Shown here piece after piece: positions 4,551-63,694 of a stretch of 64,000 nucleotides of DNA. Origin of the DNA: Paludibacter sp. (GTDB lineage: Bacteria; Bacteroidota; Bacteroidia; Bacteroidales; Paludibacteraceae); assembly GCA_028692715.1 (NCBI GenBank), contig JAQUWU010000003.1, positions 1 through 64,000 of the forward strand, in the 5' to 3' direction. Position numbers and translations under genes: made by a program. The notes beneath the pieces were generated by a model. That model ran no database searches, was not told the DNA's origin, and saw only the letters and a list, made by a program, of their open reading frames with translations. The stretch's first letter is position 1; each line of letters starts with the position of its first letter.

Positions 4551-4606
4551 TAATCACTAATCGTTAATCACTAATCGTTAATCAATAATCGTTAATCACT
4601 AATCAC
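4551..4606 (+). repeat. 14-base tandem repeat, four units, in the patatin leader
   Basis: The unit TAATCACTAATCGT is repeated at 4551, 4565, 4579 and 4593. Unit 3 has one change (C to A), and unit 4 ends AC instead of GT. The array stops 9 bases before the ATG at 4616, so it occupies the ribosome-binding region. Changes in unit number would alter leader length or structure without touching the reading frame. Confidence 0.85.
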
Positions 4607-4615
4607 CCCGAAATA

Positions 4616-5425
4616 ATGGATTTACTACATTTACTTAATCGGAAACCCTACAAAATAGGCATTGCGCTAAGCGGTGGAGGTATTAAAGGCTTATGTCATG
4701 CCGGAGTTTTGAAAGCTTTAGAAGAAAACGGTATTAAGCCCGACATTGTGTCCGGGGTTAGTGCAGGTGCTGTTGTTGGAGCTTTATATACCGATGGATA
4801 TTCGCCAGACGAAATTGCCACACTTTTTGAAGATATTAGCTTCCGTCAGATGACAAAAATTCAAATCCCGGATGGTGGATTTTTCAAAATTGATGCGTTT
4901 CAGAATTTTTTAAAAAAGAAATTAAGAGCAAAAACATTTGAAGAACTAAAAATTCCGTTACGAGTTGTTGCAACGGATTTAGATAAGGGTGAAAGTGTAA
5001 CTTTCACAAGTGGTAGCTTATTAGAACCAGTAATTGCTTCTTGTAGCATTCCTGTTTTGTTTAGTCCGAAAGAAATTGAAGGGGTACATTATGTAGATGG
5101 GGGCGTTCTGAAAAACTTTCCGGTTTCAACCATTCGTCAGGAATGTGAGATAGTTATTGGGATCAACGCCAGCCCATTAGTAGCTGAAAAATATAAGCCA
5201 AGCATCTTAAACGTTGCTACACGCTCATACCATTTTATGTTTAAAGCAAATATTCTGCATGATAAAGAATTATGTGATTTATTGATTGAACCAGTTGATA
5301 TGGGTAATTACGAAACATTTGATGTAGATAAAGGTCGTGAGATTTTTGAACTGGGCTATCAAACGACCATGAAAATATTACAAAGCAAGCTAAACGGAAA
5401 AAGAATTGAAATTGAACAAATTTAA
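4616..5425 (+). CDS. Patatin-like phospholipase
   Basis: The 269-residue protein carries the complete patatin signature: glycine-rich oxyanion loop 'GGGIKG' at 20-25, nucleophile elbow 'GVSAG' with Ser49, and the catalytic 'DGG' with Asp161. There is no signal peptide and no beta-barrel domain, so it is a compact cytoplasmic or membrane-peripheral form like RssA. The expected activity is acyl-ester hydrolysis of lipids; the natural substrate is unknown. It stands alone between repeats and aspC. Translation starts 9 bases after a 14-base tandem array, which may influence expression. Confidence 0.9.
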   Translation: MDLLHLLNRKPYKIGIALSGGGIKGLCHAGVLKALEENGIKPDIVSGVSAGAVVGALYTDGYSPDEIATLFEDISFRQMTKIQIPDGGFFKIDAFQNFLKKKLRAKTFEELKIPLRVVATDLDKGESVTFTSGSLLEPVIASCSIPVLFSPKEIEGVHYVDGGVLKNFPVSTIRQECEIVIGINASPLVAEKYKPSILNVATRSYHFMFKANILHDKELCDLLIEPVDMGNYETFDVDKGREIFELGYQTTMKILQSKLNGKRIEIEQI

Positions 5426-61428: not shown

Positions 61429-61845
61429 CTAATTATTTCTGTTAGCACCACCTCCACGATTTTGCATATTTTGTCTTTGTTCCTGGCGCTGAGTTTGCAT
61501 TTTTTGGAATTTTTCATCTCCGATAATTGCTTTTAATTCTGCATCCTGTGATTCACGAAATTCTTTCATTTTTGTTCTGAAATCAGGAGTGTCACGATTA
61601 ACTTCCGATCTGAATTTAGTCATATCCACATCTTGTTTTTTATACAATTCCACAACTTTTGCTTTCTCAGCATCGGTTAAACTCAAATCTTTTGCTAATT
61701 TCTCAGCTCTTTTTTCAGGAGTTACTTGTTGTCTTACTTCGGTGTTTCCTCCCTGTCTACCACCATTGTTTTCTCTGTCTTGCGCATTGATTGCTACGCT
61801 GAACATAAAAGTGCAGGCCAATAATAACATTGCATACTTTTTCAT
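61429..61845 (-). CDS. Small secreted Spy/CpxP-like protein
   Basis: The 138-residue protein has a signal peptide (about 1-21, 'YAMLLLACTFMFSVAINAQ'). The mature part is charged and helical ('AEKLAKDLSLTDAEKAKVVE', 'FRTKMKEFRESQDAELKAII') with 'GDEKFQKMQTQRQEQRQ' before a Gly/Asn tail. The LSLTDAEKAKV...Y motif resembles the periplasmic Spy/DUF4890-type chaperones. Function unknown; a chaperone or metal-stress role is possible. Confidence 0.65.
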   Translation of the reverse strand: MKKYAMLLLACTFMFSVAINAQDRENNGGRQGGNTEVRQQVTPEKRAEKLAKDLSLTDAEKAKVVELYKKQDVDMTKFRSEVNRDTPDFRTKMKEFRESQDAELKAIIGDEKFQKMQTQRQEQRQNMQNRGGGANRNN

Positions 61846-61974: not shown

Positions 61975-62005
61975 AAAAAAGGATGACTAGTAGCCATCCT
62001 TTTTT
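61975..62005 (-). terminator. Intrinsic terminator after the thioredoxin gene
   Basis: AAAAAAGGATG (61975-61985) pairs with CATCCTTTTTT (61995-62005). On the minus strand it ends the arsR operon. Confidence 0.85.
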
Positions 62006-62025: not shown

Positions 62026-62523
62026 TTATTTTGCACTTACTTTCTTTAGCAATACATCGTTAATTGCTTGTTTGAAAGTTTCTTTTGGTAATGCGCCTTG
62101 TGCCATCTGAGGAGCTTCTCCCATTGGGCAAAACAAAATAGTTGGAATGCTGCGGATACCAAATGCACCTGCTAATTCTTGCTCTTCTTCAGTGTTTACT
62201 TTGTAAATATAGATTTCGCCACTATATTCTTTAGCTAGTTCTTCAAGAATTGGTGCAATCGATTTACATGGTTGACACCAGTCAGCATAAAAATCAATAA
62301 TACAAGGTTTGTCACCTAAATATTTCCACTCGGTTGGATTTGCTTCGAAATTAGCAACTTTCGATAAAAATTCTGCTTTGGTTAAATGAATTGGAGTCAT
62401 AATTTTTTCTTTTGAATTGTTATTTGTTTCTGTTTTAATTTCTTTATTATTTTCTTTTGTAGTACCTGCACAAGCAGATAAAGTAGTAGCCAGTAATAGG
62501 CTTGCAAAAATGATTTTCTTCAT
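62026..62523 (-). CDS. Lipoprotein thioredoxin
   Basis: The 165-residue protein has a lipoprotein signal ('KIIFASLLLATTLSAC', lipobox Cys18), a charged linker (about 19-42) and a thioredoxin domain with active site 'WCQPCKS' (about 81-87) and cis-Pro 'SIPTILF'. The lipid anchor places it in the periplasm or at the outer membrane, where it could reduce disulfides or persulfides. It is last in the arsR operon, 69 bases after the HMA gene. Confidence 0.9.
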   Translation of the reverse strand: MKKIIFASLLLATTLSACAGTTKENNKEIKTETNNNSKEKIMTPIHLTKAEFLSKVANFEANPTEWKYLGDKPCIIDFYADWCQPCKSIAPILEELAKEYSGEIYIYKVNTEEEQELAGAFGIRSIPTILFCPMGEAPQMAQGALPKETFKQAINDVLLKKVSAK

Positions 62524-62592
62524 TGGATCTGTTGTTTATTAATATTATTTTTTTTTACTTTCAAACTTTATAAACTTTATGAATTTAAGCTC

Positions 62593-62856
62593 TTACAATG
62601 CACATCCCCAGATAGATGGTTCATCGTAATCAATGGAGTTTCTTTCATCTTCTTGTTTGAGCTCGGTATAACCTAACTCTAAAAGATGGGTTGCTAATTG
62701 TGCTCTGTTTACTTCATCTGTATGCGAAACCTCCACTATTCCTTTTATCTGATCTACTTCTGCCCCAAACACTCCTTGTAAAGTTCCAAGACTTTTCAGG
62801 GTTTTATTGGTACAGGTCATACAATCGGATTTTGAGATAAAAAATGTACTATACAT
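62593..62856 (-). CDS. Small heavy-metal-associated (HMA-like) protein
   Basis: The 87-residue protein has 'SKSDCMTCTNKTLKSLGTLQ' with metal-type CXXC (Cys12, Cys15) and a ferredoxin-like babbab pattern ('GVFGAEVDQIKGIVEVSH', 'ATHLLELGYTEL') as in HMA metallochaperones, then an acidic tail ending 'SIWGCAL'. It may carry Cu, Zn, Hg or another thiophilic ion or handle a sulfur group. It is 6 bases after the YgaP-like gene, so it is cotranscribed. Confidence 0.75.
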   Translation of the reverse strand: MYSTFFISKSDCMTCTNKTLKSLGTLQGVFGAEVDQIKGIVEVSHTDEVNRAQLATHLLELGYTELKQEDERNSIDYDEPSIWGCAL

Positions 62857-62862
62857 CTATTT

Positions 62863-63105
62863 TTATTTTTCGGGTTTGTATTCTTTTACTTTAACGATAG
62901 TTTTTTGTCCTTTTGTTGTTGGCGTCGAACAACTGCCACCGGGACAACTAATATTGAAAATAGCTTGAGCACCTAAAAATATTGCTCCCATAAGGTATAT
63001 ATTTTCTTTGCTTGTGAAATACCCAATTCCCAGTGCTACTGCAAGAACGATCCTAACAATGCGGGATAAATCCCAACCTGAGAAATAATTTTTAATTCGT
63101 TCCAT
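62863..63105 (-). CDS. YgaP-like (DUF2892) membrane protein
   Basis: From ATG 63105 the protein has 80 residues; the longer frame (63132) overlaps the upstream gene more and is less likely. 'LSRIVRIVLAVALGIGYFTS' and 'NIYLMGAIFLGAQAIFNISC' are two membrane helices, as in the YgaP C-terminal domain, followed by 'CPGGSCSTP'. The cysteines follow the second helix. It overlaps the DUF6132-type gene by 14 bases. Probably passes or holds a thiol/persulfide or metal; not known. Confidence 0.78.
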   Translation of the reverse strand: MERIKNYFSGWDLSRIVRIVLAVALGIGYFTSKENIYLMGAIFLGAQAIFNISCPGGSCSTPTTKGQKTIVKVKEYKPEK

Positions 63106-63301
63106 GTTTTTCTTTCTTTTTGAACATATCAAATAATAAATATCCTAATACAGCACCATAAATTATACTAATATAGGGATTTGATGTAATTGGACAAGTA
63201 CCACTGGTGCATCCCACAAAATAATAATAGGCAAAGCCGGATAATGCTCCCACAGGTAAACCGATTATTTTCAAAATGTGTTTTTTTATAAATTCTTTCA
63301 T
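63092..63301 (-). CDS. DUF6132-type small membrane protein
   Basis: The 69-residue protein has helices 'ILKIIGLPVGALSGFAYYYF' and 'SIIYGAVLGYLLFDMF' joined by 'VGCTSGTCPITSNP' (two Cys). This is the layout of the DUF6132 family in Bacteroidota as I recall it. It starts 20 bases after a near-copy of the arsR operator (63322-63341). Function unknown; the context is metal or sulfur handling. Confidence 0.75.
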   Translation of the reverse strand: MKEFIKKHILKIIGLPVGALSGFAYYYFVGCTSGTCPITSNPYISIIYGAVLGYLLFDMFKKKEKHGTN

Positions 63302-63321
63302 TTAAATTCTTTTTAATGTAT

Positions 63322-63341
63322 ATATAAACATGTATTCATAT
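63322..63341 (-). promoter_or_regulatory. ArsR-type operator, second copy
   Basis: ATATAAACATGTATTCATAT differs at two positions from the perfect palindrome at 63675-63694. It lies between the arsR stop (63358) and the DUF6132-type start (63301). Confidence 0.7.
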
Positions 63342-63357
63342 TATAGCAAAATAAAAA

Positions 63358-63654
63358 TTATACACAGTTACAGGTTTGGATACAATCAATTATCTGTACA
63401 ATTTGCTTATTCTTGAGTGAATAGTAACAGTTTTTCCCATCGCGACGACAATTCAGAATTCCTTTTGCTCTCATGTCGGTGAGATGATGTGAAAGCAAAG
63501 ACTGCTCACATTGTAATTTCTCACCTATTTGGGAAACATTTAATTCTTCTTGTTCAGCCAATAGTGAGATTACACATAATCGTGTTCCATTGGATATTGC
63601 CTTTAAAGTATAAGCAGCTTCATCCATTATATTTATATCAGGTTTTAAAATCAT
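63358..63654 (-). CDS. ArsR/SmtB-family repressor
   Basis: From ATG 63654 the protein has 98 residues; the longer frame (63735) runs through the operator and is rejected. 'ELNVSQIGEKLQCEQSLLSH' and 'HLTDMRAKGILNCRRDGKNC' form the winged helix-turn-helix. Seven Cys (27, 49, 69, 76, 91, 95, 97) are unusual: Cys49 lies in the recognition helix region and three crowd the C-terminus ('DCIQTCNC'). Likely released from DNA by a thiophilic metal or by sulfane sulfur. It is first in the operon. Confidence 0.88.
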   Translation of the reverse strand: MILKPDINIMDEAAYTLKAISNGTRLCVISLLAEQEELNVSQIGEKLQCEQSLLSHHLTDMRAKGILNCRRDGKNCYYSLKNKQIVQIIDCIQTCNCV

Positions 63655-63674
63655 GGTTAAATGTTTCTGCAAAT

Positions 63675-63694
63675 ATATGAACATATATTCATAT
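63675..63694 (-). promoter_or_regulatory. ArsR-type operator, first copy (perfect palindrome)
   Basis: ATATGAA-CATATA-TTCATAT has perfect 7-base inverted arms around 6 bases. It lies 20 bases before the arsR ATG (63654). A repeat with two changes is at 63322-63341. Confidence 0.75.

Follow-up and report, generated by a model that had tools for sequence, protein, structure and literature searches.

A conserved ArsR-headed operon of Paludibacter sp. and its relation to the TrxP-DUF6132 genes of Bacteroidota

The question raised by the locus described here is what five small cysteine-carrying proteins, encoded one after another, do together. The genes lie at positions 62026-63654 on the minus strand of the window, by which the whole analysed stretch of 64,000 nucleotides is meant (Paludibacter sp., assembly GCA_028692715.1, contig JAQUWU010000003.1, positions 1 to 64,000). 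The original prediction had read them as a route for a thiophilic metal or sulfane sulfur from the membrane to a periplasmic thioredoxin. Taking all comparisons together, we give a little better than an even chance to the reading that the operon is an ArsR-repressed variant of a Bacteroidota thiol or sulfane-sulfur module formed by the thioredoxin TrxP and a protein of the DUF6132 family. The genes, in the order of the operon, are as follows.

63358-63654, minus strand: arsR, an ArsR/SmtB-fold repressor of 98 amino acids (aa) with seven cysteines (27, 49, 69, 76, 91, 95 and 97).
63092-63301, minus strand: DUF6132 (PF19628), two hydrophobic stretches with GC-x4-CPITS between them (C31-x4-C36).
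62863-63105, minus strand: a YgaP-TM/DUF2892-like hairpin with SCPGGSC (C54-x4-C59), its Pfam score below the cut-off.
62593-62856, minus strand: an HMA-like protein with C12-x2-C15 and a C-terminal WGC (C85), no signal peptide seen.
62026-62523, minus strand: a TrxP-like lipoprotein thioredoxin with the lipobox LSAC (C18) and WCQPC (C83/C86).

The predicted arrangement, a seven-cysteine repressor followed by four proteins with a cysteine pair in each, was confirmed for both the open reading frames (ORFs) and the cysteines. The DUF6132 and YgaP-like ORFs overlap by 14 nucleotides, and the HMA-like gene starts after a six-base gap. The Pfam cut-offs were exceeded by ArsR (HTH_5, 35.9 bits against 22), DUF6132 (39.0 against 23.2) and the thioredoxin (Thioredoxin, 90.8 against 23.5), the last of which carries an export signal by pattern, namely the lipobox after a hydrophobic stretch. 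The hairpin remained below the cut-off of YgaP-like_TM (PF11127; 15.5 bits against 25.3) and resembles the transmembrane domain of YgaP only in size, in the two hydrophobic stretches and in the cysteine pair; its C54 and C59 were invariant across 19 aligned rows. The HMA-like protein also scored below its cut-off (PF00403; 20.0 bits against 24.8), and its AlphaFold model was moderate, with a mean predicted local distance difference test score (pLDDT) of 71 and residues 70-81 below 50. An HMA fold is likely, because the model matches structures of CopZ, CsoZ and MerP (template-modelling score of 0.82-0.83 by target length for CopZ 2qif).

The gene order was followed through the genus. The search covered 47 other genomes, of which 41 have DUF6132 and 36 the HMA protein; several of those without a finding are incomplete. 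Twenty same-genus loci, picked mostly for long contigs, were examined. The full five-gene order was present in 15 of them besides the window itself, three kept arsR, DUF6132 and the thioredoxin alone, one (L074) was without the YgaP-like gene only and one (L065) was without arsR. The recurring order is not a product of chance, and the predicted grouping held when it was looked for in relatives. Outside the genus the HMA protein was rare (three of 52 further genomes of the family and order), DUF6132 being commoner (64 of 100 genomes overall). In the favoured reading, DUF6132 and TrxP would be the core of the system, with the YgaP-like and HMA parts as additions that not all relatives have.

The thioredoxin is TrxP-like by its identity to solved structures: 88 of 118 residues are identical to PDB 2L5L (75%) and 77 of 118 to PDB 3HXS (65%), with 3HYP listed together with the latter. 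We take 3HXS to be the TrxP of Bacteroides fragilis; the 3HXS stretch is 95% identical to a gene of B. fragilis Q1F2. The operon of that strain (L138) has the order DUF6132, DoxDA and TrxP, in which DUF6132 (4591-4806 of the locus, 71 aa) reached 27.1 bits against the cut-off of 23.2, and DoxDA (344 aa) carries DoxD and DoxA domains. For B. fragilis 638R, the available part of a published study describes the operon BF638R_2699-doxDA-trxP, with 2699 given as a hypothetical protein without conserved domains (PMC6158253). BF638R_2699 is most likely a DUF6132 protein, because the gene order is the same in the same species. Common to this operon and that of the window are a TrxP relative, a DUF6132 gene (first in Q1F2) and an exported thioredoxin with a membrane partner. 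They differ in that DoxDA, of the thiosulfate:quinone oxidoreductase type, takes the place of the YgaP-type hairpin and the HMA-like carrier, and in that no ArsR of its own was seen in the Q1F2 locus, the control in B. fragilis being, as far as the available account goes, indirect and exerted by BmoR (PMC6158253). The same account presents BmoR as a MarR-type repressor of a protein with coenzyme A (CoA)-disulfide reductase, rhodanese, TusA and DsrE domains. It reports the trxP operon as raised in a bmoR mutant under oxygen, with no detectable binding of BmoR, and states that the role of TrxP in B. fragilis was not established by earlier work (PMC6158253). The joint role of the five families had been taken as undescribed, which stands for the operon as a whole; for DUF6132 and TrxP it does not, since they are the two ends of this studied operon, in which DUF6132 went unrecognised. 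No function for DUF6132 was found in the literature searched, where the term occurs in one paper, by its title on nucleotide sugar transporters of plants.

The pairing was also examined from the side of TrxP, in the best 80 of 580 relatives that were confirmed in named genomes. For 14 of the 80, a DUF6132 call was obtained within the stretch fetched. These include Petrimonas, Coprobacter, B. fragilis, Proteiniphilum and several Bacteroidales/Porphyromonadaceae records, together with Chlorobi, Ignavibacteriae, Desulfobulbaceae and Elusimicrobia records. ArsR, DUF6132 and TrxP stand together in Petrimonas and Proteiniphilum, DUF6132 and TrxP in Coprobacter, and TrxP adjoins DUF6132 in one Chlorobi and one Ignavibacteriae record.

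In a sample of the phylum, DUF6132 was found in 65 of 296 genomes. Of the 68 matches outside the own genome 60 were fetched, and three not called by the profile were set aside, leaving 57 loci. Within 3 kb of DUF6132, thioredoxin-like genes were present in 37 of these loci, rhodanese-type genes in 23 and YgaP-type genes in 13, with at least one of these kinds in 46. Pfam scans of 169 of the 173 operon neighbours of DUF6132 gave 38 Thioredoxin, 19 Rhodanese, 13 DUF1858, 5 Sulf_transp and 4 YgaP-like_TM matches. As a yardstick, 61 phylum genomes held on average 7.5 rhodanese matches (2.2 per Mb), and 21 genomes held 193 Thioredoxin matches in ~74 Mb; the corresponding chance expectations per 6-kb stretch are ~0.013 and ~0.016. 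The excess of thioredoxins and rhodaneses near DUF6132 is large, with ratios that are rough, the detection methods being different. As a side observation, the loci of one genome family (f57; L214, L219, L221-L224 and L252) carry an ORF of 69-85 aa between DUF6132 and a thioredoxin-like gene, and these ORFs are probably the 13 DUF1858 matches.

Individual loci show what kind of genes share an operon with DUF6132. In the same-genus locus L065, the order is a CoA-disulfide-reductase-like protein, a thioredoxin, a protein resembling sulfide:quinone oxidoreductase (SQR), DUF6132, YgaP, HMA and TrxP. The first of these has three rhodanese matches and reached 427 bits with its NCBIfam model (cut-off 579), and the SQR-like protein reached 92 bits with the type III SQR model (cut-off 525). 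MarR-type genes stand beside DUF6132 and TrxP together with CoA-disulfide-reductase-like fusions in L092, L140 and L144 and with a rhodanese in L093, the MarR-type label being our reading in all four. A further group of Bacteroidota operons (L228, L229, L253, L256 and L270) unites rhodanese-type, YgaP-type, DUF6132 and thioredoxin genes; L228 additionally has TauE and YeeE/YedE-type genes, the sulfur-related neighbours including half-size YeeE/YedE proteins. What these operons have in common with that of the window is DUF6132, the YgaP-type hairpin and the thioredoxin, and in L253 (by Pfam) and L256 (by our own profile) also an HMA protein beside the rhodanese-type genes. They differ from it in carrying rhodaneses and proteins of 460-475 aa, which the window operon is without, having an ArsR in addition. 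The only one of the 460-475 aa proteins that was scanned, from L253, matches Lactamase_B and Rhodanese; we read such metallo-beta-lactamase-rhodanese fusions as persulfide dioxygenases. HMA proteins share operons with sulfur genes less often than DUF6132, YgaP-type hairpins and thioredoxins do. These rhodanese and sulfur neighbourhoods are the main support for a role in sulfane-sulfur chemistry. Of the predicted route to a periplasmic thioredoxin, the anatomy fits and sulfane sulfur is backed by the context in relatives; metal as the cargo is not, the operon having no metal pump, although a metal or metalloid is conceivable. Sulfane sulfur is the better half of the metal-or-sulfur guess.

A part of the same evidence would also suit general reduction of periplasmic disulfides under oxidative or disulfide stress, in which the hairpins and the HMA-like protein would pass electrons to TrxP as a small analogue of DsbD/CcdA. 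We hold this explanation to be unlikely. It is consistent with two observations in B. fragilis, the higher expression of the trxP operon under oxygen when bmoR is mutated and the diamide sensitivity of a double mutant in bmoR and a linked oxidoreductase, both taken from the available part of the study (PMC6158253). DUF6132 also stands near thioredoxin-like proteins of 200 aa in one genome family, and many of its pooled neighbours match AhpC-TSA/Redoxin. However, the rhodanese, metallo-beta-lactamase-rhodanese, YeeE/YedE and SQR-like neighbours elsewhere point to sulfur as well.

The control of the operon was examined through its upstream DNA, where the following elements were found.

63674-63694, minus strand: operator-like palindrome O1, ATATGAATATATGTTCATATA, just upstream of arsR; a sequence motif and putative operator.
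63669-63677, minus strand: the element TATATTTGC, overlapped by O1, which fits the Bacteroidota -7 type TAnnTTTG.
63321-63341, minus strand: operator-like site O2 between arsR and DUF6132, with one mismatch to the pattern.
61975-62005, minus strand: a terminator-like hairpin of the intrinsic type 3' of the last gene, from the terminator scan.

The -7 box of Bacteroidota is TAnnTTTG, and in the window the palindrome runs into TATATTTGC at the predicted arsR promoter. The palindrome ATATGAANANATGTTCATATA was found upstream of arsR, with at most three mismatches, in 26 of 27 ArsR-containing loci, the exception being L091. In those 26 loci, which include Petrimonas, Seramator and Proteiniphilum records (L134, L142 and L143), none of 100 mononucleotide shuffles matched it as well. 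The second copy at 63321-63341 suggests a second regulated promoter inside the operon. Second copies resembling O2 (no more than three mismatches, and a closer fit than any of 100 shuffles) were also seen in L063, L064, L068, L069 and L070, and most other loci had no second copy of that quality between arsR and DUF6132. When the whole own genome was searched with at most two mismatches, the pattern matched only the two sites of this operon, one of them on both strands, and a reversed control pattern gave one match. Most likely, ArsR controls its own operon and little else, because the genome-wide matches are confined to O1 and O2; a wider ArsR regulon was rejected on the same search. The terminator scan is weak by itself, with two sites in the stretch against 1.1 expected in shuffles.

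These findings also bear on the view that the five genes are unrelated and share an operon by history, with no joint function. The three genus loci that keep only arsR, DUF6132 and the thioredoxin suggest that not all parts are needed everywhere, and most of the best 80 of 580 TrxP relatives have no DUF6132 nearby. Against this stand the conservation of the gene order, the confinement of the operator-like site to this operon within the genome and the way in which the same families pair again and again in the phylum, and we consider the absence of a joint function very improbable.

What ArsR may sense was approached with a profile and alignment of 27 ArsRs. Against PDB, the best match was the persulfide sensor SqrR (65.5 bits), followed by PagR (64.7), HlyU (63.6, 63.0 and 60.0) and NolR (56.4); the metal sensor CadC reached 55.7 bits, the persulfide sensors YgaV and BigR 55.3 and 54.1, and cyanobacterial SmtB 41-43. 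The AlphaFold model of ArsR (mean pLDDT 89.8) has the ArsR/SmtB winged-helix fold, and in Foldseek HlyU came first among solved structures, with CadC, PagR, NolR and SqrR close. By profile score a persulfide sensor comes first, in a ranking that is not clear-cut. According to the available part of one account, the defining mark of persulfide sensors is a cysteine pair shared between helices 2 and 5; a C-x-C in helix 3 defines the classical metal sensors, and in the atypical As(III) sensors helix 5 supplies all three ligands (PMC10509353). In helix 2 of the window ArsR (23-34), Ser30 occupies the position of the SqrR helix-2 cysteine; the nearest cysteine, C27, lies one turn earlier and is present in 22 of the 27 proteins. 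The other cysteines were counted in 26 (C49), 25 (C69), 22 (C76), 26 (C91), 25 (C95) and 18 (C97) of the 27, and in the window ArsR helix 5 spans 84-94, with C91, C95 and C97 placed on it or directly behind it. Covariation of C27 and C97, judged by eye, was not clean.

The SqrR/BigR/HlyU group resembles the window ArsR in giving the best profile match (SqrR) and the best Foldseek match (HlyU), in the sulfur-related neighbourhood of the relatives and in a cysteine at the place of the C-terminal sensor cysteine, which 18 of the 27 ArsRs have. It differs in the helix-2 cysteine, absent from all 27, C49, C69, C91 and C95 being most conserved instead. Judged from the alignment, the ArsR is near the persulfide sensors yet lacks a cysteine that defines them, and its site may be a shifted persulfide site or one of the As(III) type. 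The ygaVP operon of Escherichia coli shares with that of the window an ArsR-fold repressor, a YgaP-type membrane protein and, in the available account, repression of the operon by its own product (PMC9774250). YgaP has a rhodanese domain, which the window hairpin is without, and Cys31 of YgaV aligns, by the match ranges, with Ser30 of the window ArsR. We know of no DUF6132, HMA or thioredoxin gene in ygaVP. The names TsoR for the ArsR and TsoB for the thioredoxin were set aside, the NCBIfam matches being below cut-off; TsoB is named once, in a table, in the part of one relevant review available to us. No paper linking Paludibacter and persulfide was found in the literature searched.

A number of results weigh against a sulfane-sulfur module. 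PagR nearly equals SqrR with the ArsR profile, CadC scores above YgaV and BigR, none of the 27 ArsRs has a cysteine at the SqrR-aligned helix-2 position, and C91, C95 and C97 could equally form an As(III) site. As a rule, HMA domains carry metals. Two distant DUF6132 loci (L090 and L095, the latter labelled by likeness to the former) lead into arsenite-methyltransferase-like, radical SAM and thioredoxin/thioredoxin-reductase genes. Nine of the 57 phylum loci were without any of the tested partner families, and most of the best 80 of 580 TrxP relatives have no adjoining DUF6132. Searches of the whole own genome for YeeE/YedE and for DoxD gave no match.

Several of these points would suit a response to metalloids or metals, As(III)/Sb(III) or Cu/Hg, in which ArsR would sense through its C-terminal cysteine group and the HMA-like protein and the hairpins would bind or move the metal. 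The cysteines at or past helix 5 recall those described for atypical As(III) sensors in the available account (PMC10509353), the HMA-like model resembles CopZ and MerP, CadC ranks fairly high for ArsR in both the profile and the fold comparison, and arsenite-methyltransferase-like genes follow DUF6132 in the two distant loci. On the other side, only the families named here lie between arsR and the thioredoxin gene in the genus loci where these were readable, and no DKTGT motif of P-type ATPases was found in the called genes of 21 genus loci. None of the 27 ArsRs has C-x-C in helix 3, and C97 and C27 are present in only 18 and 22 of them. We regard a metal response as distinctly unlikely. A metal-pump operon as the leading view was rejected on the gene content between arsR and the thioredoxin and the missing DKTGT motif, a metal response being kept as a rival. 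That there is no metal ATPase, arsenite pump or rhodanese in view, as had been noted, agrees with an operon of only five genes; rhodaneses do share the operon in some relatives.

The rest of the own genome offers possible partners. It has five rhodanese matches, none of them in the operon. On another contig (C90; L281, 139-7868), a thioredoxin, a CoA-disulfide-reductase-like rhodanese fusion and a thioredoxin/thioredoxin-reductase fusion lie in one stretch, together with radical SAM/SPASM-like and arsenite-methyltransferase-like genes. Across 642 alignment columns, the fusion and its counterpart next to the L065 operon share 75.5% identity. No DUF6132 match was found at this locus; in L090 and L095, genes of the last three of these kinds follow DUF6132. 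With no palindrome match outside the operon at up to two mismatches, nothing evident places the CoA-disulfide-reductase-like locus in the ArsR regulon.

For the thiol or sulfane-sulfur module, the following mechanism was proposed. ArsR, bound to the palindrome that overlaps its own predicted promoter, would keep the operon off, and a signal that reacts with thiols, most likely a persulfide or a polysulfide, would modify its cysteines and cause its release. The products, with the cysteine pairs observed in each, would span the inner membrane as a chain whose pairs can exchange with one another. TrxP, as a periplasmic lipoprotein, would take sulfane sulfur or disulfides off periplasmic thiols. 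By positive-inside reasoning, the GC-x4-C loop of the DUF6132 hairpin would face the periplasm and the C-x4-C of the YgaP-type hairpin would lie at the cytosolic end, and the HMA-like carrier would act in the cytosol through C-x2-C and its C-terminal cysteine. The chain would couple TrxP to cytosolic reduction, with partners such as the CoA-disulfide-reductase-like fusion of C90 and thioredoxins, and the cargo passed between them would be sulfane sulfur or electrons, in either direction. Paludibacter is a strict anaerobe. The operon may be without the fusion enzyme of its relatives because such an organism would gain little from a persulfide dioxygenase that consumes oxygen.

The thioredoxin gene contains a further candidate feature.

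62398-62400, minus strand: an internal ATG (Met42 of the thioredoxin ORF) at the start of the thioredoxin domain; a candidate second start.

A methionine 11-19 residues before a KVxNYE-type motif was found in 35 of 39 lipoprotein-type TrxPs (32 of 39 with a narrower window; 29 of 34 in a cruder first count), which are not independent, 17 being from the genus of the window. The linker farther upstream held one methionine in 623 residues. The control was small, three of nine other lipoprotein thioredoxins having a methionine in the compared stretch. The TrxP of B. fragilis Q1F2 is among the four of 39 without the conserved methionine, and TrxPs without a signal peptide (L137, L139, L141 and L189) start at that methionine in the ORF calls. 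Two explanations suit the conservation, namely that the gene gives both a periplasmic and a cytosolic product or that the methionine is a relic of signal-peptide fusion; the methionine is perhaps a second start.

A more far-reaching proposal, which we put forward as doubtful, combines these points. DUF6132 and TrxP would be a minimal transmembrane exchanger of persulfide or electrons made of two-helix C-x4-C hairpins instead of the large DsbD/CcdA fold, one trxP gene would give membrane-anchored periplasmic and, from the internal ATG, cytosolic forms at both ends of the relay, and the repressor would sense persulfide or a metalloid through a new cysteine layout (C49/C69/C91/C95).

The surroundings of the operon were recorded as well. 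A divergent ORF beyond the end of the window was read as dehydroquinate synthase, and this neighbour (cluster c3) was kept in the genus loci read except L065, L069 being left out. Just downstream of the operon, 61429-61845 on the minus strand encodes a small Gln/Arg-rich protein, probably exported, with a weak match to the chaperone Spy (27 bits against a cut-off of 174); in several relatives, too, a protein of this kind (cluster c9) is encoded after the operon. In L064 and L069 of the same genus, and in Petrimonas (L134) and Proteiniphilum (L143), similar ORFs of 130-133 aa lie just after the thioredoxin gene. They start with ...F.ES.SRY.FD.T... and by eye are DUF302-like.

It was concluded that the operon is real, conserved and probably self-regulated, and that it is a variant of the poorly understood TrxP-DUF6132 module. 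Most likely it is a small system that moves reactive sulfur or reducing power across the membrane. Because DUF6132 recurs with TrxP in records ranging from Bacteroides to Ignavibacteria, each of the two proteins now has a partner that can be tested. The Paludibacter operon is a small version of the module with its own repressor and operator-like site, which suits it to the study of how anaerobes transfer sulfur or reducing power across the inner membrane.

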